A stretch of DNA of 64,000 nt from assembly GCA_949710005.1 (NCBI GenBank), contig OX453283.1, positions 20,733,004 through 20,797,003 of the forward strand, written 5' to 3'. The stretch's first letter is position 1, and every line of letters begins with the position of its first letter. Source of the DNA: Ricordea florida. Taxonomy: Eukaryota; Cnidaria; Anthozoa; Corallimorpharia; Ricordeidae. Positions 13,053 through 55,870 of the stretch are shown piece by piece. The translations under genes and the position numbers were made by a program. The notes under the pieces are model-generated. The model was not told where the DNA came from. It did not search any database and was given only the letters and a program-made list of their open reading frames with translations.

Positions 13053-14228
13053 ATGGCCGAAACATTGGATGTTGTTGTTTGCTGTATTTTGGCAGCTGTG
13101 GTAGAATTTCTTGAAGAAGAGCCTGTAAAAGAAGACGACGATATTAAAGAAGACTTTCTTCCACTGTTTAAAGAAGACTTTCTTCCACTGTTTTGTGGCG
13201 ACCTTTGCTTTTCAAAGCGAAGAAAAGCGGTCCGTATAGAGGGCTACGCGGAGACAGTCGTTCCTCGTTATAATTTGTCGGAGTTTCGGAGTCATTTTCG
13301 TCTTTCGGTGGAGACATTTAAACAACTTGTTGTAGAACTAGGAATCTGCCCAGAGCTCCCAACTGGTCCACAATATGGAGGTAGAGAGCCAATCTCGGTA
13401 GAGAAGCACTTGTTGATAACACTGTGGCTGCTTGGAAATCAAGAATCGATAAGATCAGTGTCTGACAGATTCAATGTGACAAAGAGCTCCGTGTTTACGT
13501 GCGTTAATCGAGTTTGCAGAGCCCTAAAAAATAATCTCACGAGCCAGGTTATTGTTTGGCCGACCCAAGAACGAGCTCAGGTGATTATGGACGGTTTTCA
13601 GAATCACAGAGGGCTGCAAGGTGTGAGAGGTGCTATCGATGGCTCTCACATTCCAATCAGAGCTCCACAGGAATGTCCTGAGAATTACATAAACAGGAAA
13701 AGTTTCCACTCGGTTAACTTGACGGCCATCTGTGACCATGAAATGCATTTTCTTGATTGCTATGCTGGCTGGCCTGGCAGCGTTCACGACTCCAGGGTGT
13801 TCAAGAACTCAGATTTCTATCAGACAGTGCATAATAAATTCCAAGATGATTCCTATCTCCTGGGTGATTCAGCATATACTTTGGAAACATGGATGATGAC
13901 CCCGTTCAAAGATCATGGTAACCTAACCCCTCAGCAGCGAAGATTCAATCTCATCCACTCCTTTACCAGAATGGTTATTGAAAGAGCTTTTTCACTGTTG
14001 AAGGGAAGATTTCGCCGGCTAAAATACCTGGACATGCTGCTAATCCAGGATATTGCAACAGTCATAATTGTGGCATGCACTCTTCACAACATATGTCTTG
14101 ACAACGGTGATCCATATGAGGAATTCATGGGAGAAATTGAGGAGGAGGTTAATGGTTTCGAAAATGTCTTACCCCCAGGATGTGGTGCAGAGGACAAGCG
14201 CAATGAGCTCATGCAGCTTTGTTGTTAA
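13053..14228 (+). CDS. Harbinger transposase (HARBI1-like, DDE_Tnp_4 type)
   Basis: This intact 391-residue ORF has an ATG in good context (AACATGGCC). The order is an acidic N-terminus, a helix-turn-helix-like region (VEKHLLITLWLLGNQESIRS, then VTKSSVFTCVNRV), then the RNase-H-like core. The DDE triad is D196 in GAIDGSHIPI, D246 in GSVHDSRVF and E310 in RMVIERAFSLLKGRFRR; LLGDSAY lies between the second and third. Length matches the family. Near residues 35-50 there is a 24-bp in-frame tandem duplication that repeats EDFLPLF. The protein would cut and paste the element together with the Myb-like DNA-binding partner encoded on the other strand. No lesion is visible; it may still be active, though its partner gene has a frameshift. 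Confidence 0.94.
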   Translation: MAETLDVVVCCILAAVVEFLEEEPVKEDDDIKEDFLPLFKEDFLPLFCGDLCFSKRRKAVRIEGYAETVVPRYNLSEFRSHFRLSVETFKQLVVELGICPELPTGPQYGGREPISVEKHLLITLWLLGNQESIRSVSDRFNVTKSSVFTCVNRVCRALKNNLTSQVIVWPTQERAQVIMDGFQNHRGLQGVRGAIDGSHIPIRAPQECPENYINRKSFHSVNLTAICDHEMHFLDCYAGWPGSVHDSRVFKNSDFYQTVHNKFQDDSYLLGDSAYTLETWMMTPFKDHGNLTPQQRRFNLIHSFTRMVIERAFSLLKGRFRRLKYLDMLLIQDIATVIIVACTLHNICLDNGDPYEEFMGEIEEEVNGFENVLPPGCGAEDKRNELMQLCC

Positions 14229-35220: not shown

Positions 35221-37547
35221 CATGGCCAGAAATCGCGAACGCAGCGCCCGCGTAACGGCAGCGGCTTTCTACATTACTGAAGCAAACATGGCGATTAAAT
35301 TTACAAAGGAATGTATGGAGTAAAAATTAAATTTGAAGATAGAATAACTCCTGGCATACCTGCAACGGTTTCCAAGTCTGAATCTGTTAGGAGAAAGTAT
35401 CCGTAATCCAACTGTATGAAAGTCATTTCTAAACCAGACCATTAACAGCGTCCTCTTTAAGCATGATTTTAGCTCCACTTTCGCTCTCTTAACCCTTCTA
35501 TTTCATGTAGGAAATTCGTTAAGTAGCAATCTTTCACCGCAGCTCGCCGCGTTCCCATCCGCCTGATTGATTTTTTCAAGTTCATTCCTCAAAGTTAACA
35601 TCGTGTCAAAGAAACACAGCGATTTTCAGGTAGTTTGGACACGATTAACAGCGACCATTTCGGCGATGAAAACCCAAGAATATAAAACTATAACTAGTAT
35701 ACCTAAGGTAGAACTGCTGCCGTGGGCAAGGAACAGTGAAGAAATGGAAGATTTAATGTGAATTAATTACTAGAAGGTGACACGAGGCTAAGAGGGCTAT
35801 CCAAATGTCATACGCCATGTAATGAAATACAATGTGTTGAACGAGGTGTCTTAAAAACACCAATTTAAAAGCACGCACGCAGCAATATTTGGTCCTGAAA
35901 TAAAGGAAAGAAAGCGTTAATAATGGATTACAACTTGGTCCTGAAGTAAAGGAAAGGCAAATCATTCAATGCTAAAAAATGCATCCTTGTAAGAAACACA
36001 ACCTTACAAAGCAACCATAATTATTTGTGTTTTGGACAAATGCACTCGACTCACCCAAGTGACTCGGACTGAGAACTGGCCACGAAAATAAGCAAACCGT
36101 AAAACTAACCACTTGAAACAAGCTAGGATGACTTACATTGTAACCAACTCATTCAATGCTAAAGGGAACAAGAATCGGAAAAAACGTGGACTACAATGGC
36201 GGTTTTGGCTCTTCCTCGGTGTAAAAACATATTACCCTCACCTTCAACCTAACCGGTCTTCAAAGCTTTATGCCCGTTCACAGTAACGCTGGATATAAAC
36301 CCTCGGAATGATTTCCGCACAGGTCCCTACTTTATTATGCATGCTAAAGCTGTCTTGTCTGGTGTAATGCACGTGCAAATGTTTCTTGTGTTCGAAGAAC
36401 CAAATAGAATAGTTACAGATGGAATGCACAATGAAGTAGGGGCCTGTGCGGAAATCTTGCCAAACCCTCGGGAGACATATTCGTTTATCACGAAGCTGTA
36501 TTTTTATAACAGATACGTAAAAAACTGCAATAAGCGTAAGAAACATCAATTTACATACCGAAGAACTAAGCTCAGCTGGGTAAAGCACGCAAACAGCAAG
36601 ATTTGGTCCTGAAATAAAGAAAAGGGAACGTTAATAATCGATGAAAATTTGGTTCTGAAGTAAAAGAAAGGCAAAGTTTTCAAAAATAAAGTTAATAAAG
36701 AATGACAGAAGCGTAAAAAAAGCAGCAAGAAGCAAAACAAGAGCAATTTACACACAAAAGAACTCACCTTTATTATATCAGTGTAAGAAAAACGCACATG
36801 GCAAGCTGCTGCTCATTATTATATGTCCCGGGTAGTACTTGGTGTAAGACTGCCCATTTGAGCCTAACCACAACTCCTTGCGAGCCTACTGCGCATCCTT
36901 AATCTCTCACCGCACATAACCAAAATTCCTTGCGAGTAGATTGCGCATCCTAAATGTTTCATTCGCACATAACCACAATTCCTTGCGTTTGGCAAGAAAA
37001 AGTGATTCAATGCCCCTATAATATGATTTTTTGCCGATTAGAGAGCTGCCTCGTTCGCTCGCTTCAGGCTCACTCACTGCGGCAGCAAAAATAGAGGTAT
37101 TCAACCGTGAAGTCAGCTGATGGTTACTCGATGTTACACGAAAAAGAACCTCCGTTCTTCACAACATTCTCTCAGTTTAAGCGCCATGTTTTGTATCAAA
37201 AGAAAGCTATGAAACCAGGCTTCAAAACACTGTTGAGAACTGGGAACAGACGCTAAACAGTGTTGTAGGTCAGCGCTCTAAATAGAGGGCCTTGTTACTT
37301 CGGGCGCGGTATGGCAGGAATTTCATTCGTGCGATCAAGTGAAGGATTTCCTTATCGAAAGCAATTTTAGACATCCTGAAGGCTTTTGATCGCTGGAAAT
37401 TTAACCATGGATGAAAGACAATGCAGTTGTTCATAATCGACCTCGCGAACAAAACGCTTCATGGGCCGCCATATTCATTTTTTCTGTTATTGTGGACAAA
37501 GCCGCGTGCCGGTGTGCGGGCTGAAATGTCCGCGATTTCTGGCCATG
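35221..37547. mobile_element. Non-coding relative of the CATGGCCAGAAATC transposon family
   Basis: Left end CATGGCCAGAAATCGCG (35221) and its exact complement at 37547. Flanks are GAAAAT and ATTTGCC, with no direct duplication beyond possible AT. The first 14 bases match the ends of the 40745-46331 element. No transposase is visible, so this is a non-autonomous member. It lies inside 34501-38059 and itself contains the hAT-like MITE at 36305-36461. Confidence 0.8.
36305..36461. mobile_element. hAT-like MITE, copy 1
   Basis: Inverted ends GGAATGATTTCCGCACAGGT and (complement) GGCAAGATTTCCGCACAGG, with the 8-bp duplication AAACCCTC at 36297-36304 and 36462-36469. An 8-bp duplication fits the hAT superfamily. 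Sister of the copy at 40881-41022. Confidence 0.92.
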
Positions 37548-38462: not shown

Positions 38463-38700
38463 ATGGCGATTAATAAAGACGAAGTCTCTGATCTTATGAA
38501 GGCCAACAACGACAAGCTGATGTCCTCTTTCAAAGACTTCTTAGCGACACTGTTCAACAGATCAAACACGCCAACGATATCAAGGCGGACGAGCACCTGA
38601 CCGAAATAAAAAAAACTGAAGTACAATAAGCCACATAAGTTCAAGAAACGGGCAAAGGAGGACCAGTACAAGTTCAACCTCAAGATGGCCAAAATTCATG
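38463..38700 (+). pseudogene. Retroelement ORF1/gag-like fragment
   Basis: A short frame, MAINKDEVSDLMKANNDKLM..., is followed in another frame by HKFKKRAKEDQYKFNLKMAK, a combination I associate with cnidarian retroelement gag-like proteins. Frameshifted and cut off at about 38700, just before the integrase relic. Confidence 0.3.
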
Positions 38701-38838
38701 CAGTTCAATCAGTTCTTATTCATTCAATTCAATCCGCGGAATATTCGTTCAGTGTTCGCACTTATTCATTTAATCTCGGGGACTGGGACGAGGGAAAACA
38801 AACGCGTGGTACTGGGTAACACTCTTCCCGCAAAAAAG

Positions 38839-40319
38839 ATGGCGAAATCGGAAGACATGATCCATGTTTGTGATGATTTAGGAATCGAGAGTTTCTTTGA
38901 GCATATCTTAAACAGGACGGAGGAACTTCTTGATGAGAACTCAAATGTAAGTGGTGAACATCCTATTTCAACCCATTTCGATCTCCTAGAGAGAACGGTA
39001 AGATTACTACCTCAATTGGCGAGGATAGTCACAGACGAAACTGATCTGAAACTGTTAGGCGATTTAAGAGTGGTGTTCTCTGAACTACTTGAAAAGTTCC
39101 TTCATCATTTTGGAAGCACGGCATCTTATACCTCGCAAGTTATAACATTCCCTAGTCTATTGGTCAATAGTGAAGGCCCAGGTAGACCACGGGTTCACAT
39201 TCCGCCTGAGGTACTCGACGAGTTGAGAGGGCTGGGATTTACATGGCAAAAGATTGCTAGTATATTTAAAGTGTCGCGCTGGAAAATTATGCGTCGAGTT
39301 CGTTTATTTGAACTGGAAAATCTCTCTCTCTTCAGTAGCATCACTGATGAAGAAATCGACGATATCATTCGTGACTACATTGCACGCCATGGGTCAACCA
39401 CAGGAGAATCCTACCTCCGTGGATACTTTAGAGCATTGGGATATACCATACAGAGGAGGAGGATCAGAGAGAGTTTAAACAGGGTAGATCCAAGGAACAC
39501 CGCGTTGAGGTGGGGTGCATTAGTGTCAAGGAGAGTGTATTTTGTCCCGTGGCCAAACTCGTTATAGCATTTAGATGGTCATCACTCATTGATTCGCTGG
39601 GGTTTTATAATACACGGATGCATCGATGGTTATTCAAGAAGAATTACTTTCCTTCATTGCAGCACAAATAATCTTGCTTCAACAGTTCTCGGTCTCTTTG
39701 AAAGTGCTGTGGAACGAGATGGTGGGTTATGGCCCTCTCGCATCAGGGTAGATTATGGTGTGGAGAACACTGCTGTATGTGATGTAATGGTAGCTGTTCG
39801 GGGAGAAGGTCGGGGTAGTTTCATTGCTGGATCATCAACAAGAAATCAGAGAATCGAGAGATTATGGAGAGATGTTTTCAGATGTATTTGCCATGTATTT
39901 TACTACATGTTTTGGATGTTGAAAACCCTATTCACATGTTTACTTTACAGTATGTCTTTTTGGCAAGAATAAACAATGCTTTACCTGAGTGGATGGTCTC
40001 TTTCAATGACCATCCTTTCCAAACAGAGCACAGTTGGTCACCAAATCAAATGTGGTTGAATGGGATGCTGCACCCATGCAATCCTCTTGTTAATGGCAGT
40101 AATGACGTTGAGTTTGAAGACATGACATTTTATGGAGAAGATCCTGAAGCACCGATGCCAACTGAAGAATCCAACAACAATGTTGAAGTGTTTCATGCCC
40201 AGCTACCAAGCAACAACACTGATGAACTGGTGGCCTATTTAACTACTGCTGTTGATCCTTTACAGGAGTCTTCTAGTTTTGGTGTGGACATTTATGCTAA
40301 AGCTCTTGAAATAAGTTAG
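38839..40319 (+). pseudogene. rve-type DDE integrase (IS3EU-like family), broken
   Basis: ATG 38839 (AAGATGGCG context) opens a 243-codon frame. Its helix-turn-helix-like part includes GPGRPRVHIPPEVLDELRGL and FTWQKIASIFKVSRWKIMRR. TAG at 39565 falls where the family has a Trp, just before HLDGHH (first catalytic Asp). After it the same frame continues IRWGFIIHGCIDGYSRRITF, IRVDYGVEN (second Asp) and [14 protein letters not shown] (Glu). Near 39905 a frameshift or deletion moves to the frame with [20 protein letters not shown] and the C-terminus FGVDIYAKALEIS. The shift is shared with the duplicate at 48896, so it predates the duplication. Similar proteins form a multicopy integrase-core family in cnidarians and fish. 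Confidence 0.86.
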
Positions 40320-40880
40320 AGCAAGAACATTGAAGACAGTATTACCACTGAGTAATGTTATTGACTTGTTCTCACTGTCATCATGAGTGATGTACAAAAT
40401 GCCAATGCCCAAATGTTAACCTGGGAAGCAGGGAGGGGCACGACTTGGATTATGGACTTGGATTATGGAAATTTCTAAATATCGGTGTACAACTCCTGAT
40501 CCTCCTTCAGGAGTCATGATGACGTCCTGTAAACAGTGAATGTATGTACACAAAAAAACTGGTATTTAAATTATTCAACACTTTTATTGAAGAAAGGGAT
40601 CCTCAGTCCAACGTTGATCAATTTTTTCAATGTCAAAAATTAACAGTCAGCCAGCTTATTTAATTTTTGGCTACAAACGTTCATAACAGTATGATATTAC
40701 TAGTGCATGTTCAAATTTTTGTGACAACAGTAACATTAACATTCATGGCCAGAAATCCGTGACAGCATGGCCGCCACGCACGCGCATCGATAACGAACGG
40801 GGTCTTAGGTTACAAACGCGTCACAAAAACCATTACAAGGAAAACAGTGCAATTTCAACTAACCTTCTTTTAATAATTGC

Positions 40881-41022
40881 GGAATGATTTCCGCACAGGT
40901 CCCTACTTCATTATGCATGTTTCATTCTACAAATTATAACAGAAATGTTTACATGTGCATTACCGTAAACAATTCATCTGCTGCATACATAATGAAGTAG
41001 GGACCTGTGCGGAAATCTTGCC
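40881..41022. mobile_element. hAT-like MITE, copy 2
   Basis: Same inverted ends as 36305-36461, with an 8-bp duplication ATAATTGC at 40873-40880 and 41023-41030. It sits 130 bp inside the left end of the chromodomain transposon. Confidence 0.93.
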
Positions 41023-41585
41023 ATAATTGCTCCTACGATACAACCGCCGAAGGTGACAGTTTCTTCCAGATCGCAAAATAAAGTGGACTATTTGTACAAC
41101 CTTTCGCTGCATGCTGTACGTCCTTTTACGTGTGTTTAAGTAGTTCCCGAAGCGATTTCTGTTGGACGCATAAATCCTTGCACTCCGCCATACATTTTCT
41201 TAATAACAGTCCAAAGTGAGCATAAAATTCCCAAAATTAGGCCACTTGGCAGGTTTGCATGAATGTTCTTCCAGATCGTACTGTTTTGTTTACATGTTAA
41301 ACTTCATTTACCATCCAAAATTAGGTACCATTAAAGCCCCTAAATCGGTTCCGAACTTGGTCGAAAAACAGTCCAAATACTACTGAAGAATCCTCAAAGC
41401 GACGCCATTTTTAAAGTCCGAGAAAGGTACAGAAAAATACCATGTTTTTAGCCCGTCGTAAACCGTTGTCTCTACCCAATTCTATTCTCCATCTTGAATC
41501 CCAAACTGCTTCACTCTAACTTGGTAACCTTGCCTTCATAAATTATGCAACTGAAACATAACATCGCCGAAAATTTACAAGTAAA

Positions 41586-44246
41586 ATGAGCGTCGAATTT
41601 AGTCAATGTTGCTCGCGTTTCAAGGATGCAATCAGATTCACTCAACCGGAATTAAGATATGAAGCGAGGGAAAGAGTGAAAAGAGTGCTTTTTACTTTAG
41701 AAATTCCCTATCCCCTTTTGAGAGAATGGCATAAAGTTGTTCAAGAACAAAACGTGCTTTCGACTAGCACTTCCGGTGAAGATTCCTCAATCGGAAGTGA
41801 AGAGAGAGAGGCAAATTCTCCTTCTACAAGCGCAGCTGAAAACCCACTCGGGGTGAAAAGGTTCAGCTACATAGATTTGGTGGAAAAGTGCACATTCGGG
41901 CAATGCTTTGCCTTTAGCGACGATGAAAATGTACGAAGTGAAATTGATGCAGCTTTGTTAAATATTGCCTATAAAATTTCATTAGATTACAAAAAAACTA
42001 AAGGCAGGGCAAGAAAAGAGCTTGATAATCGAGTCCGAAAGTTTCATGTTATGGAGGGTCAAGCAAAATCTGTTCAGGAACTCTACCAAGAAATTAGAAA
42101 CATAGAAAATGAACTACAGGAATGGAAATCAAACTATAAGAATTTAGAAGTAGAGAAGGAAAGAATCTATGAGGAAATGGTGCTGGCAGTGAAACAAAGG
42201 GAAAATAAAACACAAGTTTTGCAGAAAACAAACAAAGAACTTGAAGATTACATTGGATCATTGGAAAAATCAGTAGGAATTAGTTCATATCAGGGAAAAC
42301 CTCTTTCAACTGTGAAAAATAAGTTCAGGACCTTGAAAACTTTTCCTTCACGAGCTGAAGCTGCTCTTTGGTTCTGCTCTTCCTTTGGTGTTGAACTGCT
42401 AAGTTTAACTGTAAAAGAATCAGACTCTAATGTGGTTCACCATATCACAAGTCAAGCAAACTGCCAGTATTCAGCCAGTCAAGAGGAAGGGGAAAGAAAG
42501 TACAGCTCCTTGCCTGAAGAAGAAAAAGAGTGTGTGGAAAAAATCCTCTTCCTGTTGGACAAATTTTGTGTGGGAGATGCATTCTATCATGAAATTTCTA
42601 TGATTACAGATGGTCTTCCACGCTCCTATTTGGTCAAGCAATGCCGTGATGAGCTAAACAAAATGTGCCAAATTGATCCATTACATGCCAAGTTTGAAGG
42701 GGCCAAAGTAAGTTCAGTTGAAACTGTGTTCAAAGAGCATATCTCTGCTTTTCTCAAGCAAAACAGTGACTTTGACCCTATCACTGATAAAATCAAAATC
42801 AAAATCAATGGTGACGGTGCAAGAATGACCCGAAATTCAAATTTTATTTTACTTTCATTTTCTATTTTGCAAACAGAGGAGTCAGTTATGTCAGCTAAAG
42901 GAAATAGAACTCTTGGTATAGTCAATGGATCTGAGAGTTATCACACAATAAAGGAGTCATTTCAGAGTTTATTCAGGGAAGTAAATGACTTAATTGCCAC
43001 AGGCAAAATTACTGTGGATGGCCAGGAGGTTAAAACTGAATTCTATCTTGGTGGTGATTACAAATTTATCTTGCTCATGCTTGGACTCAAGGGGGCAACA
43101 TCCAACTATGCTTGTGCCTGGTGTAAAATACACAAGACTGATCGCTGGAAAATCAATAATGACTACAACAGTTACAACACTGCACCCTTGGGAAAGACAC
43201 TGGAAGAGATTTGGGAAATGTCACAAAAATCCAAAGAAAACTACTGTTGTGACAAACAACCTTTGTTGAATATCCCACTTGATCATATAGTGGTAGATGA
43301 GCTTCACTTAATGCTGCGTGTCACAGATATCTTGCTTGAAAATATAGTACATGAGTGCCTAGACTGGGATAAAGATGATGACTTGGACAGTAAAAAGGGG
43401 GCAGTAACAGGGTTACATCTAAAAAGCCTGATTGGGGCAATCAGATCTTGTGGTGTTTCATTTGACGTGTGGGAACAACGAAATGCTGATGGGAAAGCTA
43501 GTGGCAAACATGACTGGACAAGCCTCTTGGGAAAAGACAAGAAGATCCTTTTGGCTGACCTCCCCAGCAAGTTACACAGCATTCTCCGCCCAGAAACTGC
43601 ATCAACTGTGGTTGAAGTCTAGACAGAGTTTGCTGAAATTTACAAAGTTGTCAATGGCTGGAACTCTAAGAAACAACCCACAGAATTTTTCATGAAGGCA
43701 AAAGAGTGGATTTCTCTTTTTGTAAGTCTAAATGGCAAAAGAGAAGGGTATGAGAAAGCCAGAGTTACCCCATACATGCACATCATGGTTGCACACATTC
43801 CCAAGTTCTTTGAGCTCCACAAGTCAGTCAAAATATTTACAGGGCAAGGGGTTGAAAAGAACAATGATGTAGCTCGTGCAATAATTCTGCGAAAGTCCAA
43901 CAAGTGGGATTCAGCTGGGGATGTTCTGCGACAAGAGCAACGTCAGTGGGAGCTTAAAGAACATGAAAGGGAAGTACGCAGTTATACAAAGCGCAAGGAA
44001 AGCTACTGGGATGTTGAAATTAAAGGAAACCGAAAGAAAGCAAGGGAACACTTCAGTCAAGATCCACGCCAGCAATCAAGTGAAGCTCAAAATGAACACC
44101 CCCCTTCTATGTCAACCAGCACTGACAATGACTTTTCTCATATGACAGTGAAGCAATTGAAAGAGGAATTAAAAAAGAGAAATGCCAAAGGATTTAGCAA
44201 CAAAAACAAAATTGAACTTATCAAACAACTGCAGGAAATTTGTTAA
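41586..44246 (+). pseudogene. DDE-like transposase with Cys2-His insertion and C-terminal SAP motif, one nonsense codon
   Basis: One frame of 887 codons from ATG 41586 to TAA 44244-44246, interrupted only by TAG at 43620 (codon 679). Layout: acidic/Ser-rich N-terminus; coiled-coil segment at about 150-220; a putative RNase-H-like core with D410 (NGDGARMT), D491 (LGGDYKFILL), C510-x2-C513-x2-H516 (CAWCKIH), D571/H574 (VDELHLMLR) and, after the stop, E757 (GQGVEKNND). The end (about 850-884, MTVKQLKEELKKRNAKGFSN, then KIELIKQLQEI) fits a SAP DNA-binding motif. The acidic-residue order with a zinc-like insertion recalls RAG1/Transib-type cores, but I cannot assign the family. It lies in the terminal-repeat element beside the chromodomain gene. 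Truncation at the TAG removes the presumed catalytic Glu and SAP. Confidence 0.78.
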
Positions 44247-44379
44247 TAAGAAAATATTTAATCCCAAAAAAGGAAACAATTTGAAAACTAGACTATACAT
44301 AATTAAAAATTATCATCCATTACTCTAAGCCTTTCACTCCCAAAAGTAACCAAAATCAACCCTTAACAACAGTTAAAAA

Positions 44380-44911
44380 ATCAAAGGCACCTTTGAGCTA
44401 CCTTATGGTCTGTGGTAATTATTTCATGAAGTGCTGTCCTTTCCCCAGACAATAAAGCGTTCATTCCGAATTTGTTTTGTGCACTCTTGCTACGACTGAT
44501 CAATTACTCGTCGTCCAAATTGGAGACATCGTCACGTTTAAGACTTTAAAACCCATTTCTTTCCCCTCGAGCATTCTTGAACACATTTCCTGTTAGTGTA
44601 TTTTGATCAAAGATGGAGTGAAAGGAACGAAAACCCGCCTTGACAATCTTTACGTCGGGCTCGACACAACTGACGCCATTTTGTAAACATGTTTTGCCGC
44701 TTTGTCTCACCCCCTCCCCCCACATATGTGAACATAAAACAATAGCATGACTTTGTGGACAAAACCAAACCTAGTAGGGGAGACAGGGGAGAACCTGTTT
44801 AATTCACATTTAATGCAGATTTAATGCAAAATTAATTGTCTAACGGGAATGGAGTGACAAATCCATCCATCACTATACCTCATGGTATGAAGTACATAAC
44901 ATGAGGTAAAA
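44380..44911. repeat. Dispersed ~530-bp repeat, copy 1 (inverse at 55333-55870)
   Basis: Near-identical, in opposite orientation, to 55333-55870. One end has a hairpin, ACCTCATGGTATG-AAGTACATA(A/C)C-ATGAGGT; the other begins TCAAAGGC. It sits between the two convergent transposon genes. It may be a separately inserted element or part of the transposon itself, with 55333-55870 as a fragment of another copy. Confidence 0.85.
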
Positions 44912-45030
44912 ATTGATTGTGAAATAGCACTAAAGCAAATAAGTTATTGCTGCTGAAAAACTTCTTTCTATGTACAAAAAATAAAGGTTTGTCAGTGGGA
45001 GTAAAAAGATTAAATTCAAAATACATTAAT

Positions 45031-46218
45031 CTAAGGCCTGAGGGTAAAAGGCTGCCGACCAAAGTCCAGGGAAAGCTTCTCAATTAGCATTCGCTGATCT
45101 TCTTGAAGCTCTCCTTGGACTATGGTAAATGTTTTGGGAGACTTAGCTAAAAATAAATGAACCTTGAAAGGGTACTTAACCCTCACCCCATCCCCATTAC
45201 TGTCACAAGCTACATCCCAGTTTTCCACAAGCTGACACCTTTCAAAGTCGCTTTTTTCAAGCAGGATGTAGCCCTTCTGTCTAACCTCCCTCCCCTTCCC
45301 ATGGAAAAGCATTCTGAAGCAATCATGCTCAAAATCAATAACCACATTGCTTCGGGATTTGCTTTTAAGTTTTGCGAGTACTGATACCCGCAAGGTGTCA
45401 ACTGCTTTGATCACCCTTTCCCTCGGAACTGGGGGCTTGTCATAATTTCTGCAATTGAAGGAAAGTATAAAATATAATTAGTAACAAAATTTTGCACTCT
45501 GGACAGGAAATGTTTTAAGCTAAACTACAATCCACAAAATATCATTTAGTACATTGTTACACAATTTAAATCAAAACATTAAAGCAAATGTAGAATGTTA
45601 CTAGATAAAGAAGAGAAAAACTCTAATAATATACATGTATAATACAAGTACTTTTCAAAGAAATTGAAGATAAACACATTCGACTGAATTCAAGAAAATA
45701 CCAAGGAAGCTTCAATCCATCACTCTAGTAATAACAACTTTAACATATCCTTTAGTAAAAGGTTGAAGTAACTACAAAATACGTTTTTCAATCATCTGAC
45801 AATGAAAAGTTCTGCTAGCTGCAATTAAACTATACATCACCACTTAAGAGGAAAAAGTAAGCTCACCTGATAAGATCAACAGTGAGGTATTCCTCGTCCT
45901 CCCAGCTGTTATAAAATGCACTGTACCCAGACCACTTTATCAAATACTGAGTCTGAAAATTGCAAAGGATATGCTTCAGTTCAAAGAGCTAAATCAAGGG
46001 AGAAACAAGTGACAACCAAAGAAATTTAAACCTGAAACACTCACCGTGCCGCCTGCGGTCCTCTTTGATACGACCCGTTCGACGGAAAAAAAAATAGATT
46101 TTTTTGTTCGCCTTTTGTTGTTTTTTCCTCCCCAAACAAGATCTGAAGAGGAAGCATTGTGCATCTGCACATACAAACCACGAGTTCTTTTACTCGACGC
46201 TCGCACACCGTCCGCCAT
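45031..46218 (-). CDS. Chromodomain protein, three exons, carried by the transposon
   Basis: Minus-strand exons: 46218-46045 (ATG, phase 0 end at ACG-GTGAGTG), 45952-45867 (TTTTCAG acceptor, CAG-GTGAGC donor) and 45448-45031 (TTGCAG acceptor, stop). Frames join exactly to 225 residues. The splice between exons 1 and 2 completes a chromodomain: FSVERVVSKRTAGG from exon 1 and YLIKWSGYSAFYNSWEDEEY from exon 2, matching the V-E-x-I-L/KR...YLVKWKGY...NSWE consensus with two of the aromatic-cage positions present. A lysine-rich stretch (KNNKRRTKK) precedes it. Exon 3 (NYDKPPVPRERVIKAVD...) is unrecognised. Chromodomains bind methylated histone tails and direct some LTR integrases to heterochromatin; a targeting role here is inference. 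Start overlaps an AAATGGCGG motif. Confidence 0.78.
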
Positions 46219-46331
46219 TTTACTAAGAGAAAGTTGGGAAATCTGATGCCTTTGCGCATGATCACTACGATGTTTCTGGTCTTTGCGAGTCCTCGATGCA
46301 TGCTGCTGACTGTCACGGATTTCTGGCCATG

Positions 46332-47700
46332 AATACTAAATTCAACCCTTTCACTCCCAGAAGTGGCCAACTAGATCCAAATTGCACAAAATTCTACAAT
46401 ATATTTTATAAAAATCTGAAAACAAACTGTACTTTGTGAAAGTACTGCGAAAGAGGTTTCATTTGAATGGTCAGGATTTTGTACACAGGCTCAAAAGGTA
46501 GAACCACATCAAAAGACTCCATCATTCACCCTGGGGGTGAAATGGTTCATCATTAAAATCAACTTTTCAGTGTTTTCTTTTCTTATTTCAGATTTCCATC
46601 AATTTTCATGAATAACTTTAAATGTGAAATTATGGTACCAACTGTTAAGACATGTAAGCTTAAAATGTTTGAATACATATTTTACAATCACTTGCTCCCA
46701 ACTAAAAGTAAAACTATTTCCAGTAAGGTTTTTCAAATCACAATAATATCTACTTCTCTTAAAGAAGTTTTATTCATTGTAATTAATTCTAATATAAATG
46801 AGAACCCTTTTTAAGCATGTTCTTCATAACCTTGAAGAAAACTTGGAAACGTTGATTAAAAAACCAGTGGGGAAAAGTAGGGAAGTTCAATAACAACAGA
46901 GTTGAGTTTTGATGCTTGTTATTTTAAATTTGCAAAAACTAATAAACCGATGTACTTTAGGTGCATCTAATTGTTCAGTAATAATAAGCAAATTTGTGAG
47001 CTGTTTGGGTTTAGCATGTTGAAGTGTAATCTTGTCTGACCAGGAATACTATCAATTAAAAGTTATTGTCAGGAAACCTGTTAGACAACCCCAAAATATG
47101 CATTCTTAAAAGCATAGTCATAAAGTTTGAACAATTCTCCGTCTGCTGGCAGAGGGAGGTTTGGCGTTCCTCTTGGTAAGTGTAAAGTATTAGAACAAGT
47201 ATGGGCCTTAGGCAAGAAATCAGTAGTGATCCTTTTCTTTTGTGTACCCTGGAAAAAATAACAGAGTGAAAATGACTGTTGAGCAATCGAGAATCTCATA
47301 TACATGTGCTGGAAAACAAACAGTAATACAGGTAGCAGCACTTCAAAAATCTTGAATTAATTTTGTTCCAGCGAAAGTGTTTTTTTAACGTCAACCCCTT
47401 GTAGCCATTTTTAGGCTGCCTCTATACACCAATTTCATAAATGGCGGTGGATTTATTATTCTTTTGTACGTATGTTAATTAGACCAACTGGCCTCATTTT
47501 GGAACGAAAAATTCTATTGAATTGTGCGCATCCTAGCAAGGTCAGTAAGGCTTAATACCATGAAAACAAAAGAATAATAAATTGGCCTCCATTTATGAAA
47601 GTGGTCTATATTGGCTACAGTATAATCACACCATAGGATTCCACAAAGTTTTGAACGTTTCAATGTCATTTCCGTGGTTGATACAAGCACAGAGAAATAA
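46332..47700. repeat. Segmental duplication, copy A right part
   Basis: Nearly identical to 49846-51207. Together with 39787-40744 it forms copy A of a ~2.3-kb block, split by the chromodomain transposon. The block contains the 3' half of the integrase relic and non-coding DNA; small ORFs here (46608-46814, 47056-47341) are repeated in copy B and show no motifs. Confidence 0.93.
47427..47606. mobile_element. Mariner-type MITE with TA/TATA flanks
   Basis: Inverted ends (left CACCAATTTCATAAATGG; complement of the right end GACCACTTTCATAAATGG) with TATA on both sides (47423-47426, 47607-47610), followed inward by ATTTATTATTCTTTTGT on both arms. Related copies occur at 47933-48080, 50941-51120 and as the host of the 31158-32176 insertion. 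Confidence 0.7.
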
Positions 47701-48441
47701 GCAAAATAAGATTACTTTGTGCTCAAAATTTGTTGCACTAATTTTTCAAAATACTTTACCGCTTATCTGCTTTGAAACTTCATAACTATAATTTACAATT
47801 CAAAAAATGGCTCAAGGTGATGACATTTGCAGGTCTGGTGACACCACCCATAAGCTTGGAGTGGCTAACACCGCCTCGATTAGCTTTTTCTAGGTGTTTG
47901 CGGGGTAAGCCATCCACTAACTATTTATTATTCTTTTGTACGTATGTTAATTAGACCCACTGGCCTCATTTTGGAACGAAAAATTCTATTGAATTGTGCG
48001 CATCCTAGCAAGGTCAGTAAGGCTCAATACCATGAAAACAAAAGAATAATAAATTGGCCTCCATTTATGAAAGTGGTCTATATTAACTACAGTATAATCA
48101 CACTATAGGATTCCACAAAGTTTTGGACGTTTCAATGTCATTTCCGTGGTTGATACAAGCACAGAGAAATAAGCAAAATAAGATTACTTTGTGCTCAAAA
48201 TTTGTTGCACTAATTTTTCAAAATACTTTACCGCTTATCTGCTTTGAAACTTCATAACTATAATTTACAATTCAAAAAAAGGCCCAAGGTGATGACATTT
48301 GAAGGTCTGGTGACACCACCCATAAGCTTGGAGTGGCTAACTCCGCCTCGATTAGCTTTTTCTAGGTGTTTGCGGGGTAAGCCATCCACTAACTATTATA
48401 TTTAGTTAAATAAAGTTGTTGTTGTTGTTGTTGGTGTTAAA
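47451..48441. repeat. Tandem duplication (~480 bp x 2) ending in a (GTT)n tail
   Basis: ATTTATTATTCTTTTGTACG starts at 47451 and again at 47933, and the two units run in parallel through TGGTGACACCACCCATAAGC and GCGGGGTAAGCCATCCACTA. The second unit ends in TTAAATAAAGTTGTTGTTGT, a retroposon-like tail. Confidence 0.9.
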
Positions 48442-48483: not shown

Positions 48484-48897
48484 TGTTCTTCAATGATGTT
48501 GTCTTCTCTTGTCTCTTGTGCGGGCACACAGGCAACCATAAAATGAATGCTTGGTTGTTGGGTAAGGCCCAACAGTGGCTCTTCACTTGCTCCTGTGACA
48601 AATTCCAAGATGTTTTCCAATGTGGTCACTCTACGCCCACTTGCCACATCTCGCAGGTACTTGACAAACTTACTATAAACAGCTTTCTCATACCTTAGAC
48701 TGTTAGAGCCTTCCTCAGAGAACATGGGTTTAAGGAGATGAAGGATAAATGGAACTGTCAATTTGGCATTGTTTTGGGATGGTCTAAGCAGGTAAAGGAA
48801 GATTTGGAACTTTCGGGCAAACATGTGAATTCCAAGAGTATCTAGTCCTTGACGAAGCTTCAAAACACACTTTGAACTTGCTAATTCATCACCAGCT
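48484..48897 (-). pseudogene. HECT ubiquitin-ligase C-lobe exon fragment
   Basis: Minus-strand frame: [40 protein letters not shown] and ASGRRVTTLENILEFVTGAS, then LLGLTQQPSIHF, matching the late part of HECT domains of the type common in cnidarian and fish multigene families. A CAG-GTAAAC donor follows at 48484/48483. The catalytic-Cys exon is not seen downstream. Its 5' edge is cut by the start of duplicated block B at 48896. Probably the continuation of the HECT relic at 52489-52833. Confidence 0.7.
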
Positions 48898-49421
48898 GTT
48901 CGGAGAGAAGGTTGGGGTAGTTTCATTGCTGGATCATCAACAAGAAATCAGAGAATCGAGAGATTATGGAGAGATGTTTTCAGATGTATTTGCCATGTAT
49001 TTTACTACATGTTTTGGATGTTGAAAACCCTATTCACATGTTTACTTTACAGTATGTCCTTTTGGCAAGAATAAACAATGCTTTACCTGAGTGGATGGTC
49101 TCTTTCAATGACCATCCTTTCCAAACAGAGCACAGTTGGTCACCAAATCAAATGTGGTTGAATGGGATGCTGCACTCATGCAATGCTCTTGTTAATGGCA
49201 GTAATGACGTTGAGTTTGAAGACATGACATTTTATGGAGAAGATCCTGAAGCACCGATGCCAACTGAAGAATCCAACAACAATGTTGAAGTGTTTCATGC
49301 CCAGCTACCAAGCAACAACACTGATGAACTGGTGGCCTATTTAACTACTGCTGTTGATCCTTTACAGGAGTCTTCTAGTTTTGGTGTGGACATTTATGCT
49401 AAAGCTCTTGAAATAAGTTAG
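48896..49421 (+). pseudogene. 3' half of rve integrase, duplicate copy
   Basis: Copy of 39787-40319 with few differences, including the shared frameshift before [15 protein letters not shown]. It starts abruptly after the HECT exon at AGCTGTTCGG, so there is no 5' half. Ends IYAKALEIS-stop as in copy A. Confidence 0.92.
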
Positions 49422-51208
49422 AGCAAGAACATTGAAGACAGTATTACCACTGAGCAATGTTATTGACTTGTTCTCACTGTCATCATGAGTGATGTACAAA
49501 ATGCCAATGCCCAAATGTTAACCTGGGAAGCAGGGAGGGGCACGACTTGGATTATGGACTTGGATTATGGAAATTTCTAAATATCGGTGTACAACTCCTG
49601 ATCCTCCTTCAGGAGTCATGATGACGTCCTGTAAACAGTGAATGTATGTACACAAAAAAACTGGTATTTAAATTATTCAACACTTTTATTGAAGAAAGGG
49701 ATCCTCAGTCCAACGTTGATCAATTTTTTCAATGTCAAAAATTAACAGTCAGCCAGCTTATTTAATTTTTGGCTACAAACGTTCATAACAGTATGATATT
49801 ACTAGTGTATGTTCAAAGTTTTGCGACAACAGTAACATTAACATTAATACTAAATTCAACCCTTTCCCTCCCAGAAGTGGCCAACTAGATCCAAATTGCA
49901 CAAAATTCTACAATATATTTTATAAAAATCTGAAAACAAACTGTACTTTGTGAAAGTACTGCGAAAGAGGTTTCATTTGAATGGTCAGGATTTTGTACAC
50001 AGGCTCAAAAGGTAGAACCACATCAAAAGACTCCATCATTCACCCTGGGGGTGAAATGGTTCATCATTAAAATCAACTTTTCAGTGTTTTCTTTTCTTAT
50101 TTCAGATTTCCATCAATTTTCATGAATAACTTTAAATGTGAAATTATGGTACTAACTGTTAAGACATGTAAGCTTAAAATGTTTGAATACATATTTTACA
50201 ATCACTTGCTCCCAACTAAAAGTAAAACTATTTCCAGTAAGGTTTTTCAAATCACAATAATATCTACTTCTCTTAAAGAAGTTTTATTCATTGTAATTAA
50301 TTCTAATATAAATGAGAACCCTTTTTAAGCATGTTCTTCATAACCTTGAAGAAAACTTGGAAACGTTGATTAAAAAACCAGTGGGGAAAAGTAGGGAAGT
50401 TCAATAACAACAGAGTTGAGTTTTGATGCTTGTTATTTTAAATTTGCAAAAACTAATAAACCGATGTACTTTAGGTGCATCTAATTGTTCAGTAATAATA
50501 AGCAAATTTGTGAGCTGTTTGGGTTTAGCATGTTGAAGTGTAATCTTGTCTGACCAGGAATACTATCAATTAAAAGTTATTGTCAGGAAACCTGTTAGAC
50601 AACCCCAAAATATGCATTCTTAAAAGCATAGTCATAAAGTTTGAACAATTCTCCGTCTGCTGGCAGAGGGAGGTTTGGCGTTCCTCTTGGTAAGTGTAAA
50701 GTATTAGAACAAGTATGGGCCTTAGGCAAGAAATCAGTAGTGATCCTTTTCTTTTGTGTACCCTGGAAAAAATAACAGAGTGAAAATGACTGTTGAGCAA
50801 TCGAGAATCTCATATACATGTGCTGGAAAACAAACAGTAATACAGGTAGCAGCACTTCAAAAATCTTGAATTAATTTTGTTCCAGCGAAAGTGTTTTTTT
50901 AACGTCAACCCCTTGTAGCCATTTTTAGGCTGCCTTTATACACCAATTTCATAAATGGCGGTGGATTTATTATTCTTTTGTACGTATGTTAATTAGACCA
51001 ACTGGCCTCATTTTGGAACGAAAAATTCTATTGAATTGTGCGCATCCTAGCAAGGTCAGTAAGGCTCAATACCATGAAAACAAAAGAATAATAAATTGGC
51101 CTCCATTTATGAAAGTGGACTATACTGGCTACAGTATAATCACACCATAGGATTCCACAAAGTTTTGAACGTTTCAATGTCATTTCCGTGGTTGATACAA
51201 GCACAGAC
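48896..51208. repeat. Segmental duplication, copy B (contiguous, with empty site)
   Basis: Matches 39787-40744 then 46332-47700 without the intervening 5.6-kb transposon. Junctions: left with the HECT exon, right with a fragment of the hAT-like MITE. The empty site is at 49845/49846. Confidence 0.95.
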
Positions 51209-51213
51209 GATGG

Positions 51214-51285
51214 AAAATTGCATTACCCTAAACAATTCATCTGCTGTATGCATAATGAAGTAGGGACCTGTGTGGAAATCGTGCC
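51214..51285. mobile_element. Fragment of the hAT-like MITE
   Basis: Right-hand part of the family seen at 36305 and 40881: CATTACC(C/G)TAAACAATTCAT, then GTAGGGACCTGTGTGGAAATC. The left half is missing. Confidence 0.85.
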
Positions 51286-51541
51286 AAGGACTACCAAGTA
51301 GACTGATGAAGCTGGATTAATTGATCTTAGCAATATAAGTGTTGTGGTTCATTTTTTCTTTACTTTGAAAATTTTCAAACAAGGTTAATTTTCACTTTTC
51401 TTTGTCCCAAACAGTTACCATAATCAGAGACTAAGAAAAACAAAAATTTAACTGGTTTGAAACATTTTTAAACAACGGAAAATTGAAATCAGAACATATA
51501 CAAGTATAAATTAATATAATGTACTGTTGAGTGTTCATACC

Positions 51542-55310: not shown

Positions 55311-55332
55311 GTGACTTTCTCTATTTGTTCCT

Positions 55333-55870
55333 TTTTACCTCATGGTATGTACTTCATACCATGAGGTATAGTGATGGATGGATTTGTCACTCCATTCCCG
55401 TTAGACAATTAATTTATGCATTAAATCTGCATTAAATGTGAATTAAACATGTGCTCCCCTGTCTCCCCTACTAGGTTTGGTTTTGTCCACAAAGTCATGC
55501 TATTGTTTTATGTTCACATATGTGGGGGGAGGAGGTGAGACAAAGCGGCAAAACATGTTTACAAAATGGCGTCTGTTGTGTCGAGCCCGACGTAAAGATT
55601 GTCAAGACGGGTTTTCGTTCCTCTTGCTCCATCTTTGATCAAAATACACGAACAGGAAATGTGTTCAAGAATGTTCGAGGGGAAAGAAATGGGTTTTAAA
55701 GTCTTAAAAGTGACGATGTCTCCAATTTGGACGACGAGTAATCGATCAGTCGTAGCAAGAGTGCACAAAATGAACTATTCGGAATGAACGCTTTATGGCC
55801 TGGGGAAAGGACAGCACTTCATGGAATAATTACCACAAACCATAAGGTAGCTCGAAGGAGCCTTTGATTT
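55333..55870. repeat. Dispersed ~530-bp repeat, copy 2 (inverse of 44380-44911)
   Basis: Complement of 44380-44911 with scattered differences. Here the hairpin is complete: ACCTCATGGTATG, then CATACCATGAGGT. Confidence 0.87.

Follow-up and report, generated by a model that had tools for sequence, protein, structure and literature searches.

How does a transposon with two genes of its own enter a genome without duplicating or removing a single base of its target? This question is raised by a 64,000-nucleotide stretch of the genome of the corallimorpharian Ricordea florida (GenBank assembly GCA_949710005.1, contig OX453283.1, positions 20,733,004 to 20,797,003 of the forward strand), the whole of which is referred to here as the window. 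The original prediction, made from the letters of the window, had claimed a transposon with two convergent genes. The ends, an empty copy of the insertion site and the gene models all bear this out. Taken jointly, the evidence makes it fairly probable that this element is a cut-and-paste RAG1-like transposon, either a member or a neighbour of the CMCT clade (as named here, EnSpm, Mirage, Chapaev, Transib and RAG1), which integrates with a 0-bp stagger and carries its own chromatin reader.

Results

Perfect 22-bp inverted repeats bound the element

The element and its termini are located as follows.

40744..46331, unstranded: whole element, 5,588 bp, defined by its perfect inverted ends and by its absence from the duplicated copy of the flanks
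40744..40765, plus strand: left terminal inverted repeat, 22 bp, CATGGCCAGAAATCCGTGACAG, starting with 5'-CA
46310..46331, minus strand: right terminal inverted repeat, 22 bp, CATGGCCAGAAATCCGTGACAG, ending in TG-3' as read on the plus strand

The left and right ends are identical in inverted orientation at 22/22 positions, as had been predicted. The predicted end of the element at 46331 also stands, whereas its start, formerly placed at 40745, lies one base earlier, at 40744. No good inverted similarity was found past the 22 bp, the next best local alignment being gapped and weak. With up to three mismatches allowed, the sole two matches to CATGGCCAGAAATCCGTGACAG in the window are the two ends themselves, and none occurred in 100 shuffles.

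The termini read CATGG..CCATG. They have the 5'-CA..TG-3' form that is usual in the CMCT clade, which is described as having C(2)C and H(3-4)H motifs between the second D and the E and target-site duplications (TSDs) of 2–5 bp (PMC12730594, 2025). Because CATG is its own reverse complement, the outermost CATG doubles as a direct repeat and can be mistaken for a TSD.

A MITE-like hairpin (MITE, miniature inverted-repeat transposable element), with 45-nt arms that are 89% complementary, lies within the element, close to the left terminus (40875-41028), and is related to 36301-36456 and 51219-51289.

An empty copy of the site contains neither a gained nor a lost base

The flanks of the element are present a second time in the window.

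39792..40743, unstranded: left flank common to the empty copy
46332..47693, unstranded: right flank common to the empty copy
48894..51207, unstranded: empty-site copy of the flanks, junction 49845/49846; 2,314 columns, 15 differences, no gap
40736..40743, unstranded: left target half, TTAACATT as read on the plus strand
46332..46339, unstranded: right target half, AATACTAA as read on the plus strand

When 39792-40743 and 46332-47693 were concatenated by script and aligned to 48894-51207, the two sequences were 99% identical, and both sides of the junction were identical over 21 bp. The empty junction, ACATT|AATACT, is the exact sum of the left and right flanks, indicating that the insertion neither gained nor lost a base. 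The claim of an empty site thus held, with the junction where it had been noted and the limits of the copy moved from 48896-51208 to 48894-51207; the gapless alignment likewise supports the claim that no base was duplicated or removed in this insertion.

The element was inserted midway through ATT^AAT. When the target is widened to TTAACATT^AATACTAA, 6/8 positions are symmetric; symmetry of at least 6/8 is found at 0.58% of all window centres, and the window's 51 ATTAAT sites include 6 that reach it, this target among them.

Two known kinds of insertion were rejected. MITEs of the piggyBac type with TTAA TSDs are described from corals (PMC2872659); a piggyBac or other TTAA-duplicating element does not fit, the TT^AA target here being split, not doubled. 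Newly inserted copies of the bacterial IS1272 are also reported to lack TSDs, the explanation given being that an inverted repeat is replaced (PMC5678879), so Spy, named in the original prediction as the known TSD-less group, is not the sole such case in print. The IS1272 mechanism removes its target and does not fit here because no base was lost.

The transposase model is of the RAG1/Transib type

The following features were assigned to the transposase gene, the codon coordinates of residues having been counted manually from the start of the frame and checked on the sequence.

41586..44246, plus strand: RAG1-like transposase frame, with an in-frame stop at 43620-43622 (codon 679)
42813-42815, 43056-43058 and 43854-43856, plus strand: catalytic residues D410, D491 and E757
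43113-43124 and 43779-43796, plus strand: segments holding the zinc-pair residues C510/C513 and H732/H737
44130..44186, plus strand: SAP-like C-terminal stretch, residues 849-867 (Pfam E 5.2e-4, 20.0 bits versus a cut-off of 23.9)

The pairs C510-x2-C513 and H732-x4-H737 have the C(2)C and H(3-4)H spacing of the CMCT clade. Among 120 relatives, gaps included, the two cysteines are conserved in 118 and 116 and the two histidines in 107 each. The D-D-E residues of the original prediction, its chromodomain gene and the convergence of the two genes are retained, whereas its SAP domain falls under the Pfam cut-off.

No Pfam family was found above its cut-off in a scan of the two frame parts and ten relatives. 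In 28 members of the family, RAG1 was matched at E<=1 in six (best 1.3e-4, below the cut-off) and SAP also in six (best 9.7e-5). DUF1280 was matched by P0001 at E 0.015, below the cut-off, and precomputed Pfam accessions were present in 4 of the 120 listed relatives (PF28422, PF16740, PF16064 and PF10224), in connection with which P0110 and P0041 were rescanned.

An alignment of the 28 members (A1), used as a profile against the PDB, matched amphioxus RAG1L (6b40, E 8.2e-6) and RAG1 (3jbw, E 9.6e-6; other matches to 3.8e-3). The profile had 52 PDB matches at E<=1, the weak tail of which consists mostly of coiled-coil proteins; HzTransib is absent from these 52. In the profile alignments shown, the second D is paired with that of RAG1, and the CxxC, H-x4-H and E are paired with those of both RAG1 and RAG1L. 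The profile search proposed for the 886-aa protein thus led to RAG1L and RAG1 in the PDB and to no Pfam family above its cut-off.

The predicted fold, together with the catalytic residues, corresponds to the RAG1 core shared by RAG1-like (RAGL) elements. RAG1 before about residue 454-461, the region with the nonamer-binding part, is unmatched. Structure scores were 20.9-27.5 for RAG1 entries and 14.7-15.8 for other HzTransib entries. No PHIS or IS5-type structure was seen among the structure matches listed for the transposase, which is no proof of absence. These results indicate that the transposase, as modelled, is of the RAG1/Transib type.

Relatives of the transposase are mostly anthozoan

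With residues 240-850 as the query and a pool of the 7,990 candidates that had the most words in common with it, 127 relatives were found and 120 listed. The named relatives listed are mostly anthozoan (Stylophora, Dendronephthya, Pocillopora, Desmophyllum, Nematostella, Exaiptasia, Actinostola, Paramuricea, Acropora and Oculina), and the matches listed also include single relatives in Saccoglossus, Mytilus and Tubulanus. With 98% identity over 76% of the searched region, P0002 is the closest of the matches listed, and the closest named one is P0004 of Stylophora (86%). P0002 diverges from the window protein near its end, by eye in a way that resembles a different lesion, so that each of these two near-identical copies seems to carry its own kind of damage. 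The tree built for 28 relatives had no outgroup and leaves the family unplaced with respect to RAG1 and Transib; no conclusion was drawn from it.

The N-terminus of P0115 of Mytilus coruscus contains, ahead of the transposase, a stretch that resembles the first strand of a chromodomain; Pfam made no chromodomain call there at E<=1. P0115 is perhaps a fused gene model and a hint of the same gene pair in molluscs.

Second copies were sought in collections of viruses and prokaryotes, where absence says little about an animal element. Exact and relaxed searches of viral contigs with the 22-bp end gave 0 matches each, and the left end had no match in phages. A locus search based on P0003 gave one pattern match in viral contigs (0 confirmed), and one based on A1 gave 58 matches in viral contigs and 54 in genome contigs (0 confirmed in either).

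A chromodomain gene opposes the transposase gene

The second gene lies on the minus strand and consists of three exons with GT..AG introns, so that it converges on the transposase gene.

46045..46218, minus strand: exon 1, start of the chromodomain; from splice sites and translation
45867..45952, minus strand: exon 2, bulk of the chromodomain
45031..45448, minus strand: exon 3, conserved C-terminal domain without a Pfam match, and stop

The encoded protein of 225 aa matches Chromo (E 8.5e-12, 45.3 bits versus a cut-off of 25.1) and, weakly, Mtf2_C as its Pfam families at E<=1; neither kelch nor PHD, the domains of RAG2L, was detected at that threshold. For the predicted structure of the whole protein, the Foldseek and VIA listings were filled with chromodomain and chromoshadow entries (best Foldseek E 3.3e-3). 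At the positions of the aromatic cage, assigned after HP1, the protein has F-W-Y, and four relatives have Y-W-Y or F-W-F. Hexacorals and an octocoral contain relatives of the two-part protein, chromodomain plus C-terminal domain. Among other mobile elements, chromodomains are reported from Gypsy retrotransposons (PMC12477816).

A 539-bp stretch between the convergent genes (44378-44912) recurs inverted at 55332-55870 with 95% identity. This may be a small mobile element that lies nested within this copy; no clear boundary was recognized at its ends.

The element shares its layout with RAGL elements and its motifs with the CMCT clade

RAGL elements are described as encoding RAG1L and RAG2L in convergent genes between ends of the CAC type, with TSDs of 5 bp, and as occurring in animal hosts including cnidarians; the PHD of sea urchin RAG2L is reported to bind methylated histone H3 (PMC7204232). 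Like RAGL/ProtoRAG, the Ricordea element combines the RAG1-core fold (predicted here), the DDE residues and the CC/HH zinc pairs with a transposase gene that converges on a second gene encoding a histone-reading type of domain, and both have cnidarian hosts. In contrast, the partner of RAGL/ProtoRAG is RAG2L with kelch and PHD, whereas here it is a chromodomain protein, and its ends are CAC.. with a 5-bp TSD, whereas here they are CATGGCC.. with 0 bp in one insertion. The element is therefore not a member of RAGL, since partner, ends and TSD differ, although it may work alike, the layout and the probable logic being the same.

Transib is not known to carry a chromodomain gene. Transib, for which CAC ends and a 5-bp TSD are described (PMC7204232), differs from the element in both respects, with CATGGCC ends and 0 bp in one insertion found here. 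With the CMCT clade (EnSpm/CACTA, Mirage, Chapaev, Plavaka, ESTA and Lanisha), compared by description, the element shares C(2)C, H(3-4)H and 5'-CA..TG-3', and differs in having 0 bp in this one insertion versus the 2–5 bp TSDs of that clade.

Other features of the window

Frames matching the rva_4 integrase core (PF24764) lie at 39589-40319 (E 1.4e-41 for 39589-39972 and 8.9e-13 for 39864-40319) and at 48966-49421 (E 3.5e-12), truncated where the duplicated copy begins on the left. The frame just ahead of them (38698-39567) has no Pfam match, and the element starts 424 bp downstream of the frame end at 40319. Where the duplicated flank ends on the right, 47451-48402 holds two tandem copies (97%) of a 472-bp unit that is also related to 50965-51264 and may mark the origin of the duplication or of an assembly that joined haplotypes. 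Elsewhere, 13053-14228 is an intact 391-aa frame with a DDE_Tnp_4 match (E 1e-37), either a PIF/Harbinger-type transposase or a host relative, and 23747-25784 is an array of a 328-bp unit (6.3 copies, 93% matches).

Discussion

A possible route to insertion without duplication

In the mechanism that we propose, the transposase would bind the 22-bp ends, perhaps aided by its SAP-like tail, and excise the element through the DDE chemistry used by RAG1 and Transib. Integration would occur midway through a symmetric, AT-rich target with a TT^AA core, here ATT^AAT, by strand attack at directly opposite bonds; such a 0-bp stagger would leave no duplication. The chromodomain protein would act as the element's own chromatin reader, steering insertion toward, or coupling the element to, chromatin with methylated histones, as the PHD of RAG2L may in RAGL elements.

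Several observations weigh against this reading. Its weakest link is the extrapolation from a single insertion to a 0-bp rule; if other copies have a short TSD, the lineage would still be interesting, but the claim of duplication-free insertion would fall. A symmetric site is what would be expected from a two-fold symmetric complex selecting its target; one site is weak evidence, as is the symmetry beyond ATTAAT, because other ATTAAT sites of the window equal it. The transposase of this copy is broken by its one in-frame stop. Its fold is that of a predicted model (mean predicted local distance difference test score 81, predicted template modelling score 0.59), which aligns structurally to RAG1 and RAG1L with 13-16% identity, a weak similarity. 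Scores of single aligned stretches in the profile search were weak (0.001 for RAG1L; 0.02-0.05 for the best stretch of RAG1, among the alignments shown), and the window transposase scanned whole had no Pfam RAG1 match at E<=1, its C-terminal part alone reaching E 0.026. On the profile and structure scores together it is not safe to rank RAG1 over Transib. In the partner family, two of the three cage positions of P0122 and at least one each of P0126 and P0127 are non-aromatic, although for P0126 and P0127 the gene models may be at fault. The pairing of the two genes elsewhere is read from clusters on equal-sized contigs, not from DNA.

Alternative explanations

The chromodomain gene could be a captured host passenger without a role in transposition. 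Chromodomain proteins are common as host genes, and the role of chromatin reader assigned to this one is a proposal; its two-part architecture, however, recurs in relatives from hexacorals and an octocoral, and transposase and partner clusters occur on equal-sized contigs, which makes capture as a passenger rather unlikely.

The empty copy might not be a duplicate that predates the insertion: it could have arisen by excision, or be the other haplotype, placed in tandem by the assembly. That just 15 of 2,314 columns differ is allele-like, and two copies give no direction of change. The junction is exact either way, however, and excision would have to be free of any footprint, which is atypical of the hairpin excision of RAG/Transib-type elements. 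We regard this origin of the empty copy as unlikely.

An element that normally makes TSDs could also have been captured once, when lossless end joining sealed it, excised and blunt-ended, into a double-strand break. This is a real alternative because a single insertion was observed and the kin of the element make TSDs of 2–5 bp (CMCT) or 5 bp (RAGL), facts that also count against a 0-bp stagger. The break would, however, need to have hit the centre of the palindromic ATTAAT, which looks like chosen integration, and end joining with no base lost or added at both junctions is uncommon. Such a one-off event is improbable in our judgement.

That CATG is a duplicated 4-bp target, a possibility already raised in the original prediction, would place the true ends at GCCAG..CTGGC and require the empty copy to have lost its CATG. 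The self-complementary CATG does flank both sides as a direct repeat. The gapless empty copy, free of CATG, would nevertheless demand a separate loss of exactly 4 bp, and the termini would read GC..GC against the 5'-CA..TG-3' usual in the clade, so that we consider this explanation very improbable.

Identity as a Spy-type (PHIS) element, suggested by the lack of a TSD (in one insertion here) and by insertion inside an AT-rich palindrome, can be dismissed: Spy is described as inserting within AAATTT without a TSD and as encoding a transposase only (PMC4482050, PMC11304231), whereas the target here is ATT^AAT, the predicted fold matches RAG1 and not the fold class of Spy, there is coding capacity for two genes, and DDE_Tnp_4, the mark of the Harbinger-like frame at 13053-14228, is absent from the families listed both for the window protein (5) and for the 28 relatives (25 of 118).

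Novelty and significance

We return to the reading of a RAG1-like transposon with its own chromatin reader. The original prediction had suggested an undescribed family with a different transposase. The transposase is indeed unlike that of Spy and is unnamed in the libraries used; the family is not without kin, however, because its transposase is of RAG1/Transib type and its termini fit the CMCT clade. In titles and the starts of abstracts among the literature matches listed, there was no match for the family, for a RAG1-like transposase with a chromodomain partner or for a CMCT element without a TSD. The RAG1-like lineage of this element is probably undescribed, and the family may be present in Repbase under an EnSpm, Chapaev or Transib name. 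More tentatively, and with doubt somewhat outweighing confidence, we suggest that it represents an undescribed ancient lineage, with cnidarian, hemichordate, mollusc and nemertean relatives, that was paired with its own reader independently of RAG2 and has a true 0-bp stagger at palindromic TT^AA, which would make it the first TSD-less member with the RAG/Transib fold.

If true, a duplication-free enzyme of this fold would provide a test of how active-site spacing sets TSD length, and possibly a scar-free tool for gene transfer. How RAG1, the recombinase of adaptive immunity, descended from a transposon that had a histone-reading partner is a question of long standing. A second lineage with the same core and another reader, arranged convergently, would suggest that the pairing arose repeatedly or predates RAG2, and the role of the reader would become testable in a second system.

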